Assembly: GCA_009602725.1 (NCBI GenBank)
Contig: WELB01000076.1
Location: forward strand, 337,283 to 401,282
DNA length: 64,000 bases
Reading direction: 5' to 3'
DNA from: Spirogloea muscicola
Taxonomy: Eukaryota; Streptophyta; Zygnematophyceae; Spirogloeales; Spirogloeaceae
Part shown: one piece after another, positions 33,622 to 44,284 of the stretch
Layout of the letters: each line of letters opens with the position of its first letter
Numbering within the stretch: the stretch's first letter is position 1
Position numbers and translations under genes: made by a program
Notes under the pieces: generated by a model
Database searches by the model: none
What the model was told of the DNA's origin: nothing
What the model saw: only the letters and a program-made list of their open reading frames with translations

Positions 33622-36600
33622 ATGGCTCCTCGGCGGCGCGGTGGCGCGGCTGCCGCTCGCCGCAGCAGATGGCTTGCGCGCACCGTGGCCGCCGCGCTGC
33701 TGCTCGTCAGGACTGCGCTGGCGTATCCCATCTGCGAGGACTTCTGTGAGCACCACCGCTTATCTTGCGGCCGTAGCCAGCTCCTCCGTGTGGTCAGCTC
33801 CTGTGGGTGGCGCCTCGATCTCGGAAAGAGGCCATGTCTCTGTCACAGTTGAGCCTGGCATGGCCGCCCTGATGGGAGCTCTGGTGGTGGGCGCGCTCGC
33901 AGCTGGGCCTGTGCCGCAGTCCCCTGTGGGCCCCGTCTGCATGCAGCTCTACGGCGGCGCATATGCCAACCTGGGGTGCTGCGACTACCACGCGGACGTC
34001 CAATTGCAGCAGCAGGCCGCCGAGATGGCCTTCTCGGGTGGCTCCGACGACCAGATTGTGGCCTGCCGGACTTTTCTGCAGCTCGCAACCTGCGCAGTGA
34101 GCTCCCTCACATAACCAGCTGCTGATTCATCGATCAGCGGCCACCCTGGTGGCCGATCGATTGGCAGTGTGCTCCGTCGCGGCGCTCGCTGACGGGCTCG
34201 ACGACCTGCCATGCGTTCATGCAGCAATGCGACCCGTGGGCGTCGCACCTGTTCGACTCGGAGGTCGGCGCGACGCGCGCTCTGCCGCTGCTCTGCCTGG
34301 GAAGCTACTGCGACGGCGCGTACGCAGCGTGCGCTGGTCTCAACATCACGTACTCGCCATTCTACCTCCAGTACCTGCAGGCGCAGCAGGACGAGCTCAA
34401 CGTGCCGCCGAGCGCGGCAGCATTCTGCCTGCTAGACCAATACCCGACGGTGGATGCATTCCGGCTCGACTTCTGTGCGTCGCCACACCAGGACCGCTGC
34501 TTCTCCGGCTCGCCTTACGATCCCAACGGCCCGTTGCGCCCAGCACCGCCACCGCCACCGTACGTGATGCCCCCGCCGGCCGGCTCGGCGCCGCCTCTGC
34601 CCGACATCTGTCTCGACCGTGTCGATGACCAGTACTACCTGGGCATGCTACGGCACCCCGATGGCTCCAACCGCGTCTTCCTGCACACGCGCAGCGGATA
34701 TGTTTTCCTTGCGCAGGTCCAACCAGAAGGCAGCGGCAAGAACTTTACCAACAGGAGCACTGTAAGCCAAACTCCTATGCCAAGCATGCTGATGGTTGGT
34801 GCTGCTCCAGCGCCAGCGCTTGCCGCCTCCAGTGACGAGGCCGCCACGCCTTAGCGAAGGTCTGACCTGTTCACGCTCTTCACATGTGCAGTTTCTCGAT
34901 ATTCACTTGAGGACTTTGGCCAACGGCGAGCGTGGCCTGCTGGGATTTGCACTGCACCCGAACTACCTTGTCAATGGCCGCTTCTGTGTCGTACATCTGC
35001 AATGGCACCAAGCACCCGGACTGCCAGGGGCCGTGCGAGTGCAATGTGGTCAATCAGTGCTCTATCCCGCAGCCCAACGTCAGTAACTCGCAGCAGCCCT
35101 TGTGTGAGGCCAACGCGATTGTTGCTGAGTACAGTGCCGGCCACAGCCCACGCACAGCGACAGTCGCCATCAATGCCGAAGTCCGGAGGCTCCTCACGTT
35201 TGCAAGGTAGGGCATGCCAGGAAAGCTCCTTGGCGGGCGAGGCATCATTGTTCGCAGCAGCTGCCCGCCCATTGGAAATTGACTTCGGCTGGCGAGTCCC
35301 ACGGCCTGTGTACAGGCCCTACAGCAACCACAATGGCGGCCACCTGCTCTTCCGGCGCACTGTGCTGCAGCCTTACATGTACTACATGTCCGGTGATGGA
35401 GGTGGAGCTGGCGACATCTTCAACTTCGCACAGCGGGGCACGACCTTCCTCGGAAATATTCTGCGGCTTGACGTGGATAACTACACAGCAATCAGTCCAT
35501 ACGGCATACCGTCAGATAATCCATTCGTTGGCGTCTTAGGGATTTGCCCCGAAATCTATGCGCTTGGCTTGCGCAACCCCTGGAGCTGCACTTTTGACCG
35601 CGACAATGATGACTTCCTCTGTGCTGATGTTGGCCAGGTCTGGCGGACAGCCCCGACTGTATAGCTGCAATAGCCAGATCCTGCTTTTTGTTGCTGTCGT
35701 CGCTGTAGCTGCTTGCTTTCCTCTCATACGGATCGTTGCCTCTACTGCAAGCATTGTGAGCATTCATCAGCTTGGACTTCCTGCACTGCAGGACACCATG
35801 GAGGAGATTGATGTCATGGAGGCTGGAGGAAACTACGGTTGGCGTATGTTTGAAGGTGCGTATGAAGTTTCGCCCCTGGCAGGAGCTCCACCAAGGCATC
35901 ACCAGCATTTGCTGCTGCGCATTGATGGGCTACTTGCTGGTGCCAGCTCTTATGGACCGGATGTCTGGCAAGGTGCCCATCTGAATATGCAGCTGGCACT
36001 TTGATTGCACAGGAACGTTGAATTTCACAATAGTCGCACTGTATGACAAGCATGCCCCGCCAGGCGGCTTCACCGACCCCTCCAACATCTTTGGAACGCT
36101 AAAGGTGGGAGCTCTTGAGGCCCAGCCATTGCTGCCGATGACTTGCGTCTCCCCCATCAATCATGCAGTGGTCTTGCCAAAGCTGGAGGGACCTGAAGCG
36201 CTTTCATGACTACTGCAGAATCAGTATCGCTGATGCAAGCTTTCTCATTCCTTTCTGGCCGCAGTGGCCGAAATTGACTTACTTGCACCAGGACCCGCAT
36301 GTCAGAGTGACCTCCGTTGCAGTCATCGGTGGCCCCATATATCGCTCGTTGCGTGTCCATTGCTACAATGGCAAGTACTTCTACAACGACCAGTATGGCG
36401 CGGCATGGATTGCGACCGACACGAGCGCGCCTGGGCACCCGCGGTGGACCACCATGGCCAAGCAGCTTGTCAACTTTTACGCTGCCCTTGACACCACGCT
36501 TGCTATCCCGTTCAACTATACGCCTGGCGGTCCACTCGCGGTGCCAGAGATCCACAGCTGGGGTGAGGACTACAACGGCGATCCATACATGCTGACCCCA

Positions 36601-36927
36601 AGCGGCGTGTACAAGGTCACCGGCCACGACCGCTGCGCCATCCCTGGCTGCCCTGCGCAACCGGCACCGCCGCCCACAAGCTCAAGTCCCCCGCCCCCAC
36701 CGCCGAGGCCGCCACCGCCCCCGCCCAGCTCCCCGCCTCCTCCCCCATCGCCGTCAAGCCCCCCCCCTCCCAGCTCCCCTGTCCTCCACCGCAGCGGCCG
36801 CCTCCGCCTCCACCTCCACCTCCACCTCCACCTCCACCTCCATCTCCACCTCCACCTTCACCTCCACCTCCATCTCCACCTCCGCCATATATCTGACCCT
36901 CCAATCACGAGGTGCTGTGCTGTCTAG
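33622..36927 (+). CDS. HIPL-like secreted protein: folate-receptor-like plus glucose/sorbosone dehydrogenase domain
   Basis: Secreted relative of plant HIPL and animal HHIP proteins. Exons: 33622-33745 (signal peptide WLARTVAAALLLVRTALA), 33903-34096, 34168-34761, 34892-35206, 35316-35637, 35792-35855, 36013-36104, about 36265 or 36292 to the end. The Cys-rich folate-receptor-like N-domain (PICEDFC, GCCDYH, CHAFMQQCDPWASHLF, CLGSYCDGAYAAC) is followed by the GSDH propeller (GERGLLGFALHPNY, PYSNHNGGHLLF, MYYMSGDGGGAGD, YALGLRNPWSCTFDR, EEIDVMEAGGNYGW). The enzyme class uses PQQ or Ca but activity is unproven. A Pro-rich cell-wall-like tail follows. Two frame problems: one near 34984 (between NGRF and VSYICNGT) and one in the C-rich tract near 36760; in the second, the other frame reads a clean Pro/Ser tail ending PPPYI with a stop at 36894. 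Sequencing errors are likely. Confidence 0.83.
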
Positions 36928-37629: not shown

Positions 37630-38262
37630 CGAAGGCGGGGGGTGGCGGGTAGGCTGGGATCCCACGTAGTTGCACCCACCTACCTATAGATGGCACAACG
37701 GCTGCGCCGACACGGCCAGGTGTGACAATGACAAAGAGCAAGTAGTATTCTTGGGTGGCGATGTTGCTCTTGGGCGGGAGGGAGAGAAGGCGGGAGGGTG
37801 ACTGTTGTCGAGAATGTGCCATTGCCATTAGCGACAAACTTGGTGGACTGCAGCTTGACCATGCGCTGGCCCATGTTGAGGCCATGAGTGCTCACGCGCC
37901 GGGGTCGATCAGCACCTCAGAGACGGCCTTCGCAGCCGCCGCCGAGAACGTGAGGGGGGCGTTCTGGGAGCAGAGGAGGGAGGTAGGCAAGGACGGCGAG
38001 ATGATGGGCGGTGGAATCATCTGGTCGTCGAGGTACTGGTGGCGAGAAGGCCTCCACAGACAGTTGCATGGCCCCCGAGTACTTGGTTGGGGGAGGGAGT
38101 GTGTAGGGGCTTCCTCCTGCCAGGATGACCCTGCCGCCATGGGCGAGCGTGGCAGATGCCTGGAATGGCCTGGCGATGGTGGCGACGGTGACAAGACGTC
38201 GAACCTCGCTGCCGAGCTGGGCGACACGGCTGGATTGAGAAGGTATGGGTTCAATGCTGCCG
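37630..38262 (-). pseudogene. Galactose/glyoxal-oxidase-like gene remnant
   Basis: Minus strand, reading from 38262: blocks resembling the end of the beta-propeller and the C-terminal DUF1929-type domain of glyoxal oxidases appear in sequence but in different frames: GGRVILAGGSPYTLPPPTKY, YSGAMQLSVEAFSPPYLDD, then HGLNMGQRMVKL, and YYLLFV...PGRVGAA. The typical enzyme has PxYHSxA, GGRVLxxGSNP, THxxxxxQRxxxL and YYxLF in that order, which is matched. At least three frame changes and no start or upstream propeller make this a decayed fragment, unless some changes are assembly errors. The copper-ligand regions upstream are not present in the window. Confidence 0.6.
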
Positions 38263-38383
38263 TGCCAGCGGCACAGCCGCTCTTTTGATATTAGCAGCCG
38301 CTTTCTCTTTTATCGGCGCCACAGGTTGACTTGCACTTGACCCTGTGCGCACCTTCGTGGGCCGCGCCCCCCCCGGGGCAGCC

Positions 38384-39487
38384 ATGGCGCGCCGCGCGCT
38401 GCTGGCCGCGGCGCTCCTGGTCGCCCTCGCGGGCGCCGGCGACGTCCTGCGCGCCATGACCGCTGGGGCAGCGCTCGAGCAGGTGCGCCGGCGGCGGCGG
38501 CGGCGACGGCTTGGCTGGCTGGCCTCCGCCGCCATGGCCTTCCGCTTGCTGACCCCGTGACTCGACCGCGCGCCGCAGCGGGACGCGGGCGCGGACGCCA
38601 GTGCCGTGTCCCCCAAGGAGGACATGGTGGCGAAGGAGGCGTCGGCGGCGGCGGCTGCTGCTGAGCCGGCGGCTCGCCGAATCCACATCGCTTACTGCAC
38701 CTCGTGATCCTACAAGTGAGCGCCGCCGCTGCCGCCGCGTAATGAGCTCATGTACCACCTGCCGCCGACTCGTCGAAGCTCCGGTTTAAGGTCTGAGATT
38801 AAGGGTATAGGGTTTCGCGGAAGCTTGCCCTCCTAATGGCGGCTGCGGTGAGCAGGAACGTGGCCATGCAGTACCGCCGGGCGCTGTTGGCCGCCTTCCC
38901 CAACGTCGAGGTCACGCTCGCCAACTACCCGCCGCCGCCGCACAAGGCCCTGCTGGCCAACGCCGTCCAGGTCGCCCAGCTCGGCGGCGTCGCGCTCTCG
39001 CTGGGTGGCGACTACGCGTTCCGCGCCCTCGGGCTGGCGCAGCCGCCGGCATGGTACCAGGCTATGACGCGCAACCGCCTCGGCTACGCCGCGGGCTTCT
39101 GGCTGGGTGGGAACGTGGTCATCAACTCGCTGGTCAGCACGGGCGCTTTCGAGGTCTCGCTTGACGGCCATCAGGTAAGGTGTTTCTAAAGGTCACACTC
39201 ACATGCTGACTTTGCCCGGCTGCCTGTTCTAAGAGCAGCTTCGTCTGTTGACCTCCCATATTGAGCACTGCTCATGGACACTTGGACAAGCTTTATCTTG
39301 TCCAGTTCCAGAGTGATGATGCAGATTACAAGGATGCAGAAGCTTCATGGAGTCTCTGAGTCGGGTCTGTCCACGCTCCTGCGTGGTTGGCCAGGTGTTC
39401 TCTAAGCTGCAAGCGGGCAAAGTTCCCAGCGAGCGGGAGCTTACAATGCGAGTGGGCAACGCCTTGCACCAGAGCCTTGTGGAGTAG
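38384..39487 (+). CDS. SELENOT: Selenoprotein T, with UGA-encoded selenocysteine
   Basis: ER-membrane thioredoxin-like oxidoreductase. Exons 38384-38482, 38579-38715, 38856-39174, 39395-39487; 215 residues counting selenocysteine. The N-terminus has a signal/anchor (LLAAALLVALAGAG). Exon 2 ends IHIAYCTS, then TGA (38705-38707), then SY, matching the SelT redox motif Cys-x-x-Sec. The reading frame continues in phase through NVAMQYRRALLAAFPNVEV, NRLGYAAGFWLGGNVVIN, SLVSTGAFEVSLDG and VFSKLQAGKVPSERELTMRV, all SelT signatures, to TAG at 39485. Similarity on both sides of the TGA, in one frame and across a splice junction, is strong evidence that it is read as selenocysteine. A SECIS element should lie in the 3' UTR (39488 to about 39875); I could not identify one convincingly by eye. 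Confidence 0.9.
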
Positions 39488-39855
39488 CCGCTGGCATAAC
39501 TGCGACGAAAGCGGGGTGCCCATGTTCCTGGTCTTGGACATTGCCCTGGTTCTGAAAATACTTCGGAGGCACGAGGGAGTGCGGTTGAAGTGCCTGCTGA
39601 GGCACAAAGGCTTGGAGACTTGCACACATGACAGCGTCGTCAGAAAGCTGGCCTTTTAGGCCGACTGCCGAAGCTTGAATTCTGCAAAGTCGAGGCCTGC
39701 TGCTCAATCAGTGTGCAATACCCCTCCGTCTGCTAAAGAAAGGCCCATAGCCTTGTTCGACCAATACCAGATGGACGGTTGTACCCTTTACATTACTCTT
39801 ATGGAGGTTTAGGCTGCTCTTACGTCTACAAAACGGTTACTACTGCTCATTGTTG

Positions 39856-39860
39856 TGTAA
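39856..39860 (+). terminator. TGTAA polyadenylation signal of selenoprotein T
   Basis: TGTAA about 370 bases after the stop codon, leaving a 3' UTR long enough to house a SECIS hairpin. Confidence 0.5.
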
Positions 39861-39874
39861 AGTGTATCTCAGAC

Positions 39875-40476
39875 ATAGCATGTCGGCTGGCCCAAAAATA
39901 AGGGAGACACCAAGTGGACCGGAGAATGATTGCGCTTCTTCAATAAAATTATGGGGTTTGAGTGACCGCTGATCTTGAACATGTGCCTTGCAAAGATCAC
40001 TTCAGTGCACTGAGGCAATTGACTGGAAGCATGAAGGCTTGCTTGCTAATCCCACAGTGCACTTAACACTCTGAGGATGACCTCATCAATCTCTCAATCC
40101 GACTGTAAAGAGCATTGCCTTTTGTCATGTTTGTGGCAAGGCCGAGTAAGATGGTAAATGTAGTCCTCAATCATCATCGGACGTACTTCTACACCGTGAT
40201 ATGGTGATTGGTACTTTGCCAATATTGATCGAACACTGCTCACTCCATTTTGCACCTCACTGAGCATCTATCAGATAGTGGGGGACCAAGCTTCTTGGTG
40301 ACATGGTCTTGGGTCAAAAATGTCAATTTCATGTGATAGGCAGCTGGACGGACTCTTGCAGGGACTAGTCACCTCACCAAGCAAGGGCCTGACAACACAG
40401 CAATCAACTGGTAATGAATTTGGCCTATGAAAGGCAAGACATCATCCAAAAGTTGTATCAAAAGGGGGGTCGCTGC
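39875..40476. other. Convergent intergenic region
   Basis: Lies between the 3' ends of selenoprotein T (plus) and hyccin (minus). No gene or repeat recognised. Confidence 0.5.
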
Positions 40477-42242
40477 TCATCCGGGCGTGGTGCTCAGTGC
40501 GGCCAAGCGGACTAGGCTGCGGCTAGCCAGCAAAACGTCACAGGTTAGATCGTGTGACGCACGACTGAAGATGGCCTTTGCTGCCTGCGCGACCTCGTCT
40601 CTGACGGACCTCCCGGCGCTAGTGGCGGTTGGTCCCACGGAGACAAGAGCGTGGCCCAGGGCCAGCAAGATTGGCCGCAGGACTACCATGTCCAGCTGCA
40701 CCCTTCTGCCACTCAAGGCTTCCGCAAGAGCTTGGTCACTATTGGTGGAACTAAGGGTAGCGCTCGGGCCCGCAGCCTCCACCTCCTCGGCTCTAGCTTT
40801 TCCCTGGTCTGCCACTTGCGAGTGAGCTGGCTGCTGGAGCACAGCGCCGGCCTCGCTGAGGGACTCGCCAGTGGCCATGGCAAGCCCCCTCTGCAGCCCC
40901 GCTTGATCTGCGGCAGCCGGCTTGTCCACCGAGGGCAATGCTGCAGCGGCCAGCTCGTTGAGGTGCGCTGGCGTGGCCCACTGGCAGCCTCTTATGGCAA
41001 GCCTGGCCATGGCACAACCACCATCAGTGTGACATGCTGGGCTCATGACACAAGTGGAGGCTATCTCAAGTTGGCCACCATGCAGGAGCTTGCGGGAGAT
41101 CGAGACACGGAAAAGCTCCTCCACGGTCACAACAACGCCTTTTGACTGATTGGTTCATATTATGGTGCAATGCCAGTTAGTTTATGATTTAGGGTTTTGG
41201 TCAAGAAGTTAGGGTTAAGGAGCAGTGGGGCAGCACCCACTCCCATGGCCACCTTGTCGTGCTCATTCTTAGCAAGCTTGCCCAAGAGATTGTGACACTG
41301 ATAGCGTACCTTGAAGCAACAGTGCACAACGAGACAAGCACGAAGATGGGCATTTGCGCAATGCTGCGCCGGAGGCGCCCGAGGGCAGTGCCGACGACAG
41401 CGTTCTGCTCATATGGTCGCAGCGGGCACGCCATTGCATGCAGTGGCAGTGACGAAGCGGCCTGCACTTTGCACCAGAAATCAATCAGAGACAGCAAAGA
41501 TGATGCCACCTGCCACATCCATTCAGGCTTGCTATTGAAGCCAAAGTTGCCGCCTTCTGCAGACGGCCGTGCCTAGAGCAAGCCAGGTTTGAAATACTCA
41601 ATCCCTACTGACACCTTCTTCATGAAAGTGGAAGGAGCTTCTATCTGGCCTTGGTTAAGATGGAGATATTACCGGCGAGACCATTGGACTTGGAAGGCGG
41701 GGCGGCGCCTGGAGCAGCGATGGCGGCGGCCCTCCAGCCTCGCGCAGCTCGCCGTGGCGGAATCTTGCCTCCTCATTGTGGACGGCCACCAGCAGCTTCT
41801 CGTAGCCTACGCATGCACGAGGGGCGCCGTGTGGAGCCCGAGCTTGCCGCTCGCCGACGACGGGCCATCAACCGTGCAGGCAGTGACCACTGCCGGGCAG
41901 CCGCAGCGGCTCCTCACCGGCCGCCGCTGCGGGGCGGCCGTCTGCGCTGCGGCAGAGGTACTGCTCCACTATGAGGGGGAGGAACTGGAGCACGACGTCC
42001 TGCGCGGGGCCTTGCTCGCGCTGCAGGAACTCCATGAGCAGGTCGCACGTCTGGTCGTCGGCCTGCGCAACGACAGCCGGGCCACGACCGCCCGTTAGCT
42101 AGCGGCTGCCAGGCGAGCCACGGCGGCCGAAAGCCTCCGCGGAGACGGGGGGCGGCCATGGCGCGCACCGAGCCGGCGTCCGGCCCGCACAGCGACGCCG
42201 AGAAGGACTGGAAGAGCTCTGCCGCCGACTTGGCCGGCACCG
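40477..42242 (-). CDS. Hyccin (FAM126) family protein
   Basis: Hyccin proteins are scaffold partners of the plasma-membrane phosphatidylinositol 4-kinase alpha complex. On the minus strand I see, in order: SAAELFQSFSASLCGPDAG (42242 to about 42164), ADDQTCDLLMEFLQREQGPA then DVVLQFLPLIVEQYL (about 42045-41905), GYEKLLVAVHNEEARFR (about 41810), NAVVGTALGRLRRSIAQMP (about 41420-41360), VTVEELFRVSISRKLLHG (about 41130), and a last exon ending at 40477 with VVLRPILLALGHALVSVG and AIFSRASHDLTCDVLLASRS. The VVGTAL...MP and final ILGH...ASHDL...ILAS blocks are hallmarks of plant hyccins. Exon limits are partly unresolved. No in-frame ATG was found for the first exon: upstream is a GC tract with an N at 42313, which may hide a small indel. 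Divergent from the proteasome gene at 42548. Confidence 0.7.
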
Positions 42243-42547: not shown

Positions 42548-44284
42548 ATGGCGCGGCGCTACGACTCGCGCACGACCATCTTCTCGCCCGAGGGCCGGCT
42601 GTACCAGGTGGAGTACGCCATGGAGGCCATCAGGTGCGCGGCCCTTCTCCCGCCGCGGCGGCTCGGAATGGCTACAGAGGACCCTATCGTAGCACATGGC
42701 CAATGAAAGCGGTAGTGATCATGAGCAGTAGGATCTCTACTCTTAGACACCAAACTGGTTCTCTTGTATTCCGGGGCTGACGACGATGGCCGCTTGCGAG
42801 CGGGGTTAGCGCAGCCACGCGGGGGCTGCGGTGGGCATCATGGCCGTCGACGGCGTCGTGCTGGCTGCCGAGAAGAAGATCACCTCCAAGCTACTGGGTC
42901 CGTGCCCCTCACCCCACCGCGCTCCCTCCCGAGTTCCTTGCTTGCGCAGGGCGCCAGCAGCTCCATCGCCAATCACGACGATGGTTTCGGATTTACGGGC
43001 TCAGGGTCTAAACCAATGAATCCACCTCGACCGCCGCCTCACTACCATAAGCCTGCTCGAGCAAGCCGCGGAGGCCGCGCTGGCATGACAGCTTGGAATA
43101 GAAAATTCTGGGCTCCTACTTGTGGGCCGGGGGGGGCCCGCACTCTCGCCGGCCTTGCGACTTGCTGCGGTGCAACTTGGGCCGGCTCGTTGCCAGCGTC
43201 AGCCCAGCGGCAGGGCTTGGTGGCGGTGCGCTGAGCAGCATGGGGCTGGGCATGAGTTCCGCGCAGAGACGTCCAAGACAACGGAGAAGATGTACAAGAT
43301 TGACGACCACGTGGCGTCGGCTGTGGCCGGCATCACTGCTGACGCCAACATCCTCGTCAACACTGCCCGGCTCATTGCGCAACGATACGCCTTCGCGTAC
43401 CAGGTGAGCGAGTGTGCTGAGTGAGGGAGCAGTACCGTATGGGCTCTCATACAGGCTGTTGCACACTCAAATTCCTTGAGATACTTCTCTCCCTTGCAGC
43501 AATGGATGCAAGGTCAGCCTTGCTGACCACCAGTGGCCTCTGGATGTCGCCCTGCAGGAGGCCATCCCTGTGGAGCAACTTGTCCAGCAGCTGTGCGACA
43601 CAAAGCAGGGGTACACGCAGTTCGGCGGCCTCCGGCCCTTTGGAGTGTCGTTCCTCTTTGCTGGTTGGGACCAGAACTTTGGGTTTCAGCTCTACCAGGT
43701 ATGTCAGAAGCACATGCCATCAGGAGATGGCTCATGCAGGACGTCTCAAGCAACCGGCACAGTGCACCCATGCTCACTTGGCGCGTCCATCAGTCAGAAG
43801 GCAACAGCTAGCTCAGTGACAGCATGTGGCTTTCTCACTATACTTTACCGTTTGGCAGAGTGATCCGAGTGGAAACTATGGGGGCTGGAAGGCTGCCGCA
43901 ATTGGCGCCAACAATCAGGCGGCACAGTCAATTCTGAAGCAAGACTACAAGGAGGACATGGACCTGGAGGCTGCCCTCGGTCTGGCCCTCAAAGTCCTGA
44001 GCAAAACCATGGATAGCACCACCCTTTCGGCCAACAAGCTGGAGCTGTCGCAGGTGCACTGCCTTAATTTGCAGCAATGGCAGTAGTGAGCAGTGGCAAG
44101 CAGCTAATAGTCCTTTGTGAGGTAGTAGTCATGTTCATGTGGTGGCCCTGGGTTCTTTGGGGTTGGGGAGCAGGTCAGCAAGGGGCCCAATGGTGAGGTG
44201 GAGTACAAGGTGTTCACTGCTGCAGAGCTGGACGGCCTGCTTACCAAGCTCAAGGTGCTGCAGCCAAAAGAGGACGAGAGATAA
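42548..44284 (+). CDS. PAC1: 20S proteasome subunit alpha type-4 (PSMA4/PAC1)
   Basis: Structural alpha-ring subunit of the 20S proteasome, cytosol and nucleus. Six exons: 42548-42633, 42815-42897, 43267-43403, 43558-43698, 43859-44053, 44174-44284, giving 250 residues, the family's length. Starts [28 protein letters not shown] (proteasome alpha N-terminal signature), followed by [62 protein letters not shown] and [20 protein letters not shown]. The [14 protein letters not shown] and [14 protein letters not shown] blocks separate it from the other six alpha subunits. The alpha type is non-catalytic. A beta subunit gene of the same complex lies about 6 kb downstream, though with unrelated genes in between. 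Confidence 0.95.

Follow-up and report, generated by a model that had tools for sequence, protein, structure and literature searches.

The window analysed here, a stretch of 64,000 nucleotides taken at its full length, carries on its forward strand a four-exon SelT gene model spanning 38384–39487, with three introns of 96, 140 and 220 bases, all of them GT-AG. Exon 1 (38384–38482) opens with the start ATG, encodes a hydrophobic N-terminus, joins the model in frame through a GT-AG intron and can be aligned in two homeologs. Exon 2 (38579–38715), with the C-T-S-U redox motif, exon 3 (38856–39174) and exon 4 (39395–39487, including the TAG stop at 39485–39487) are drawn from the gene model and from alignment of the genomic copies, and exon 3 also from a genome search with its protein. 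The coding sequence comprises 648 bases including the stop and yields 215 residues. Residue 76 of the 215 is encoded by an in-frame TGA (38705–38707, forward strand), found in all three copies and set in the frame ...RIHIAYCTS-TGA-SYK, at the second redox position of the C-x-x-U motif. An intron with GT-AG borders (38716–38855) follows, and the junction 38715/38856 lies in frame 8 bases past the TGA.

Family membership is supported by profile matches that run from residue 67 or 68 to residue 205 or 206, and thus on both sides of the TGA. The spliced protein scores 80.3 bits against the NCBIfam model TIGR02174 (CXXU_selWTH, covering SelT, SelW and SelH; cut-off 34.2) and 66.1 bits against Pfam Rdx (PF10262; cut-off 22.6), and falls short of the Campylobacter-type equivalog NF041051 (44.9 bits, cut-off 88). 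What sets SelT apart from SelW and SelH is a thioredoxin-like fold interrupted by a long hydrophobic insertion, together with a hydrophobic N-terminal segment. The window protein shows both traits: profile positions 1–72 of 74 are spread over residues 67–205 (139 residues), indicating a long insertion within the fold, and Kyte-Doolittle peaks over 19 residues fall at residues 4–24 (1.84) and 110–128 (1.5). A PDB search returned eight rows, the best being Protein C17orf37 (E 4.3e-6) and the remaining seven having E 0.097 or worse.

A sequence-only reading of this DNA had proposed a TGA read as selenocysteine in a SelT gene, a Cys-x-x-Sec redox site and a splice junction 8 bases past the TGA in the same frame. 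These proposals have held up, with both family models matching on either side of the TGA and C-T-S-TGA present in three of three copies, and with the junction recovered in the sequence as described. The stretch then given, 38684–39875, starts too late: the gene begins at 38384, and exon 1 had been overlooked. The expectation that automatic annotation would be misled was correct, as mechanical ORF calling yields a fragment starting at 38836. The value of the finding is mainly one of annotation, in that standard gene callers would break up the SelT gene or end it at the Sec codon.

Around the gene, the first exon of a proteasome alpha subunit gene (42548–42631, forward strand; Pfam Proteasome_A_N, 56.4 bits) lies about 3 kb past SelT, and the open reading frames at 36163–36924 (forward) and 40477–41127 (reverse) have no Pfam match. 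Five lone N bases occur in the window (3158, 13168, 26430, 42313 and 50125) and are probably a trait of the assembly.

Gene copies and protein-level constraint

A search of the genome (153 Mb in 471 contigs) with the exon 3 protein led to three places: the window itself, contig C30 (94% identical) and contig C28 (92%). All three aligned copies share the same four-exon frame, in which the TGA is the sole internal stop, and the TGA, the open frame around it and the GT-AG splice sites are kept in each. Identity among the copies amounts to 94–97% in exon 1, 81–91% in exon 2 and 94–98% in exons 3 and 4, and to 71–90% in the introns and 79–87% in the UTR outside the SECIS candidate described below. 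Beyond the TGA, dN/dS for the three copy pairs is 0.231, 0.312 and 0.192, and the region past the apparent stop is therefore under protein-level constraint, as judged from the aligned copies. Before the TGA the same pairs give 0.748, 0.588 and 0.544, so that constraint is stricter on the part beyond the TGA than on the N-terminal part, and the weak constraint apparent in the latter has been counted against the explanation preferred here.

The SelT region (window 38250–40100) is thus present in three diverged copies, and exons of SepSecS, SelD and eEFSec are likewise found at three loci each. Four genes, each found at three loci, suggest either that the genome was triplicated or that the alga is an allopolyploid.

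Two further searches concerned relatives of the family. When the whole genome was searched with the Rdx profile, two matches containing a TGA came up and the SelT exons went undetected, so that this search is unfit for counting the family. One of the two (L002; 22.5 bits, 23.1 with neighbours, marked as over the cut-off; VEYCRQCRW) was rejected as chance: at 1391–1578 on the reverse strand lies a P-type ATPase exon (E1-E2_ATPase, 44.1 bits), another frame of which mimics the Rdx motif with its Cys-x-x-Cys, a trap for six-frame searches for selenoproteins. The other (L003; 19 bits, below the cut-off) was also taken as chance, with less proof, the opposite strand holding an open frame with no Pfam match. 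Among viral contigs searched for relatives of exon 3, seven pattern stretches were obtained and none was confirmed.

SECIS candidate and selenocysteine machinery

The 3′ UTR contains a type II SECIS candidate at 39617–39691 (forward strand), brought out by an Rfam SECIS_1 match below the gathering score, a motif scan, folding, homeolog alignment and pair counts. Helix I pairs 39617–39624 with 39683–39691 (GACUUGCA/UGCAAAGUC) and has one bulged base, an A; it is followed by AUGA (39628–39631), helix II (39633–39643 with 39665–39675; AGC-G-UCG-U-CAG/CUG-C-CGA-A-GCU), an unpaired AAA (39644–39646), an apical mini-stem (39649–39663; UGGCCU/AGGCCG) and UGA (39676–39678). The AUGA, AA(A) and UGA motifs are thereby combined with helix I, helix II and an apical mini-stem in the manner of a type II SECIS. 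The mismatches of helix II are G-A and U-C in the window copy and G-A and C-A in the C28 copy (L014).

Covariance-model scores for this element are low. The window copy matches Rfam SECIS_1 (RF00031) at 39619–39688 with 17.4 bits (E 7.3; gathering score 35 bits), a score that would, taken alone, count as chance; the C30 copy (L013) reaches 29.4 bits (E 0.011), also below the gathering score, and the C28 copy has no SECIS_1 match at E up to 10. In folding energy the copies barely surpass shuffled sequences (z −0.50, −1.58 and −0.23). One pair shows a two-sided change, C-G to U-A, between the window and C30 copies, with a mismatch there in C28, and this single covarying pair is not distinct from a shuffle control (343 of 500) among the three sequences. 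The SECIS stretch is 92–95% identical between the copies, against 82–87% and 79–84% for the UTR on either side, and standard pairs occupy 95.8% of 72 alignment cells, against 16.7–45.8% when the partner strand is slid by 1–3 columns. A motif-and-pairing scan picks out this element alone in the 3′ UTR, and a comparable motif in 51 of 3000 shuffled UTRs, a figure that serves as a guide only, the scan rules having been written after the candidate was known. Over the 64-kb window the same scan gives two matches on the forward strand and one on the reverse; the second forward match, at 39926, was rejected for its weak pairing and for an ATGA missing from both homeologs.

On this combined evidence we take the element at 39617–39691 as the SECIS. 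The sequence-only reading had seen no clear SECIS in the 3′ UTR and had supposed that its form might be unusual. The candidate is recognisable in spite of its sub-gathering score, and its form is not unusual, because a long apical mini-stem is already described for almost all O. tauri SECIS elements and for several Chlamydomonas ones (parts of PMC2375036). The low SECIS scores affect the certainty of the SECIS more than that of the Sec codon.

That reading had also proposed a search of the genome for selenocysteine machinery, and here the outcome was divided: eEFSec exons were found at three loci, and tRNA-Sec was recovered neither by Rfam nor by four patterns. The eEFSec C-terminal domain (eEFSec_4th, PF21131) gave six matches, four of them over the cut-off, on contigs C80, C233 and C65, and matched in none of 14 control genomes. 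The euk_SelB_III domain (PF21208) gave one match only (L016), below the cut-off and too weak by itself; it lies on C80, on the same strand as the eEFSec_4th match and about 0.6 kb from it. SepSecS (PF05889) is represented by 11 exon matches on C36, C32 and C3, with matches in 3 of the 14 control genomes; PF05889 is matched by three first exons, and TIGR03531 is the best model for two of the C3 exons. Selenophosphate synthetase (TIGR00476) likewise gave 11 exon matches, on C3, C232 and C56 (best E 5.8e-20), none of which passes the whole-protein cut-off, the matches being single exons; all 14 control genomes match this model as well, two over the cut-off. For two of the C3 exons selD is the best NCBIfam model.

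The best genome match to PSTK (TIGR03575; L015) has E 0.084 and 18.6 bits, below the cut-off and too weak. With Rfam RF01852, scoring covered 53 of 7899 first-look candidates and yielded a single sub-cut-off match (L001), which ARAGORN identifies as tRNA-Ser(TGA). Its contig, C392, is a plastid contig, with a photosystem II protein (psbC-like frame, 255.8 bits), tRNA-Gly and tRNA-Thr beside the tRNA-Ser. The four patterns for tRNA-Sec, used without a trial on known tRNA-Sec and the second of them stricter in the T loop than had been planned, gave 0, 0, 4 and 8 matches, against 0+0, 2+2, 1+0 and 14+15 with reversed patterns. By ARAGORN and Rfam, none of the matches (L031–L034 and L035–L042) is tRNA-Sec, and L031 is a tRNA-Glu. 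Given the limits of these searches, we judge the tRNA-Sec and PSTK failures to be misses and not absences. A signal recognition particle RNA gene (RF00017, 83.1 bits) of the same genome lies in L041, at 463–760 on the reverse strand.

Readings of the in-frame TGA

The reading of the C-T-S-TGA site as selenocysteine in a SelT gene is supported and is the best available. It is preferred because C-x-x-TGA stands at the redox site, the family HMM match extends across the TGA, purifying selection acts downstream, a SECIS-like element is present in the 3′ UTR of each copy, and the genome carries genes of Sec synthesis and decoding. We accordingly regard the locus, with a probability of about 0.94, as a standard nuclear SelT gene from a green alga, probably a streptophyte, in which UGA would be decoded as Sec through a type II SECIS. 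The DNA itself shows a conserved reading frame, the motifs of the SECIS and exons of eEFSec, SepSecS and selenophosphate synthetase. The SelT mRNA would be spliced from four exons, and the ribosome would insert selenocysteine at UGA 38705–38707, with the type II SECIS, its AUGA 560 bases further along the mRNA, recruiting SBP2 and eEFSec with Sec-tRNA(Sec). The predicted product is a membrane-associated oxidoreductase of the C-x-x-U type, with a thioredoxin fold and a probable location in the ER. From what is known of the family we infer that the exons are joined as modelled and the UGA decoded in the cell, as well as the parts of SBP2 and tRNA-Sec, the ER location and the redox activity.

A possible alternative donor, GTGATC, lies at 38704–38709 (forward strand), its GT consisting of the final G of the preceding codon and the first base of the TGA. 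Joining 38703 to 38856 would drop Sec-Ser-Tyr-Lys (12 bases) and keep the frame in each of the three copies. The donors of the SelT copies vary (GTGCGC, GTGAGC, GTAAGG, GTGACC and GTAGGT), so that GTGATC could, by its sequence, act as a donor too. Two donors 12 bases apart might allow one gene to yield either a Sec-containing or an in-frame Sec-less SelT, depending for instance on how much selenium is available, and this in each of the three homeologs. We consider such a choice very unlikely, and it would add to selenocysteine decoding, not replace it.

Constant use of GTGATC in place of GTGAGC at 38716, which would splice out the TGA in every transcript and leave only a Sec-less YCTS-NVAMQ protein, is highly improbable. 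Exactly 12 bases would indeed be removed in frame in three of three copies, all of which share the same alternative donor, whereas the main donor of the C28 copy reads GTGACC; this identity, however, is expected anyway because the surrounding codons are conserved. GTGATC also has no G at +5, a base present in the main donor of two of three copies, and constant splicing-out would forfeit the catalytic Sec and the next three residues (SYK), identical in all copies, and render the conserved SECIS useless. We give equally little credence to a general reassignment of TGA, or to readthrough without selenocysteine, for which the open frame alone would speak, but against which stand the SECIS-like element, the genes of the Sec machinery and the placing of the TGA where the family has its Sec. 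A pseudogene or sequencing error, with the TGA a real stop, as the standard code would have it, or a misread Cys codon, can be practically discounted, since the same TGA occurs on three contigs that differ by 10–29% in introns and by 13–21% in the UTR outside the SECIS, with low dN/dS past the TGA and a SECIS-like element in the 3′ UTR.

Relation to known algal selenoproteins

In the library of papers searched, none pairs 'Spirogloea' with 'selenocysteine'. We take Spirogloea muscicola and the alga named 'Spirotaenia sp.' in the work cited next to be one alga. For 'Spirotaenia sp.', a subaerial zygnematophyte, the genome is described as recently triplicated, with the complete set of Sec machinery genes and a small number of selenoproteins, and its transcriptome is reported to be without selenoproteins, though a few such genes are found in the genome (parts of PMC6627142). 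SelT is not named for that species in the part of the text considered here, and the gene may already figure in the sequence data deposited by its authors (PMC6627142). A genome triplication is also mentioned for Spirogloea muscicola (parts of PMC7994812). With its plastid contig and its four genes at three loci each, the genome of the window probably belongs to this alga or to another with a comparable triplication. Should the window come from the 'Spirotaenia sp.' of the former work, the selenoprotein-free transcriptome would count against selenocysteine decoding at this locus (parts of PMC6627142). If the host is a zygnematophyte, and hence of the sister group of land plants, a Sec-containing SelT has been kept three times over just outside the lineage that lost selenoproteins, a pattern of loss already described (parts of PMC6627142).

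The window SelT is a further member of the known algal SELENOT, and the find is an ordinary one, because Sec-containing SELENOT is reported to occur in over half of 36 genomes of algae (PMC7539508). The Chlamydomonas SelT has a C-x-x-U motif like that of the window SelT (parts of PMC9404770), and the Ostreococcus SelT resembles it in having a SECIS with a long mini-stem (parts of PMC2375036). Ostreococcus SECIS elements mostly have an unpaired G before the core, whereas the window element has an A, the common eukaryotic form (parts of PMC2375036). Apart from that base, and as far as published descriptions allow the comparison, the one difference noted between the window SelT and those of Chlamydomonas and Ostreococcus is the presence of three homeologous copies in one genome.
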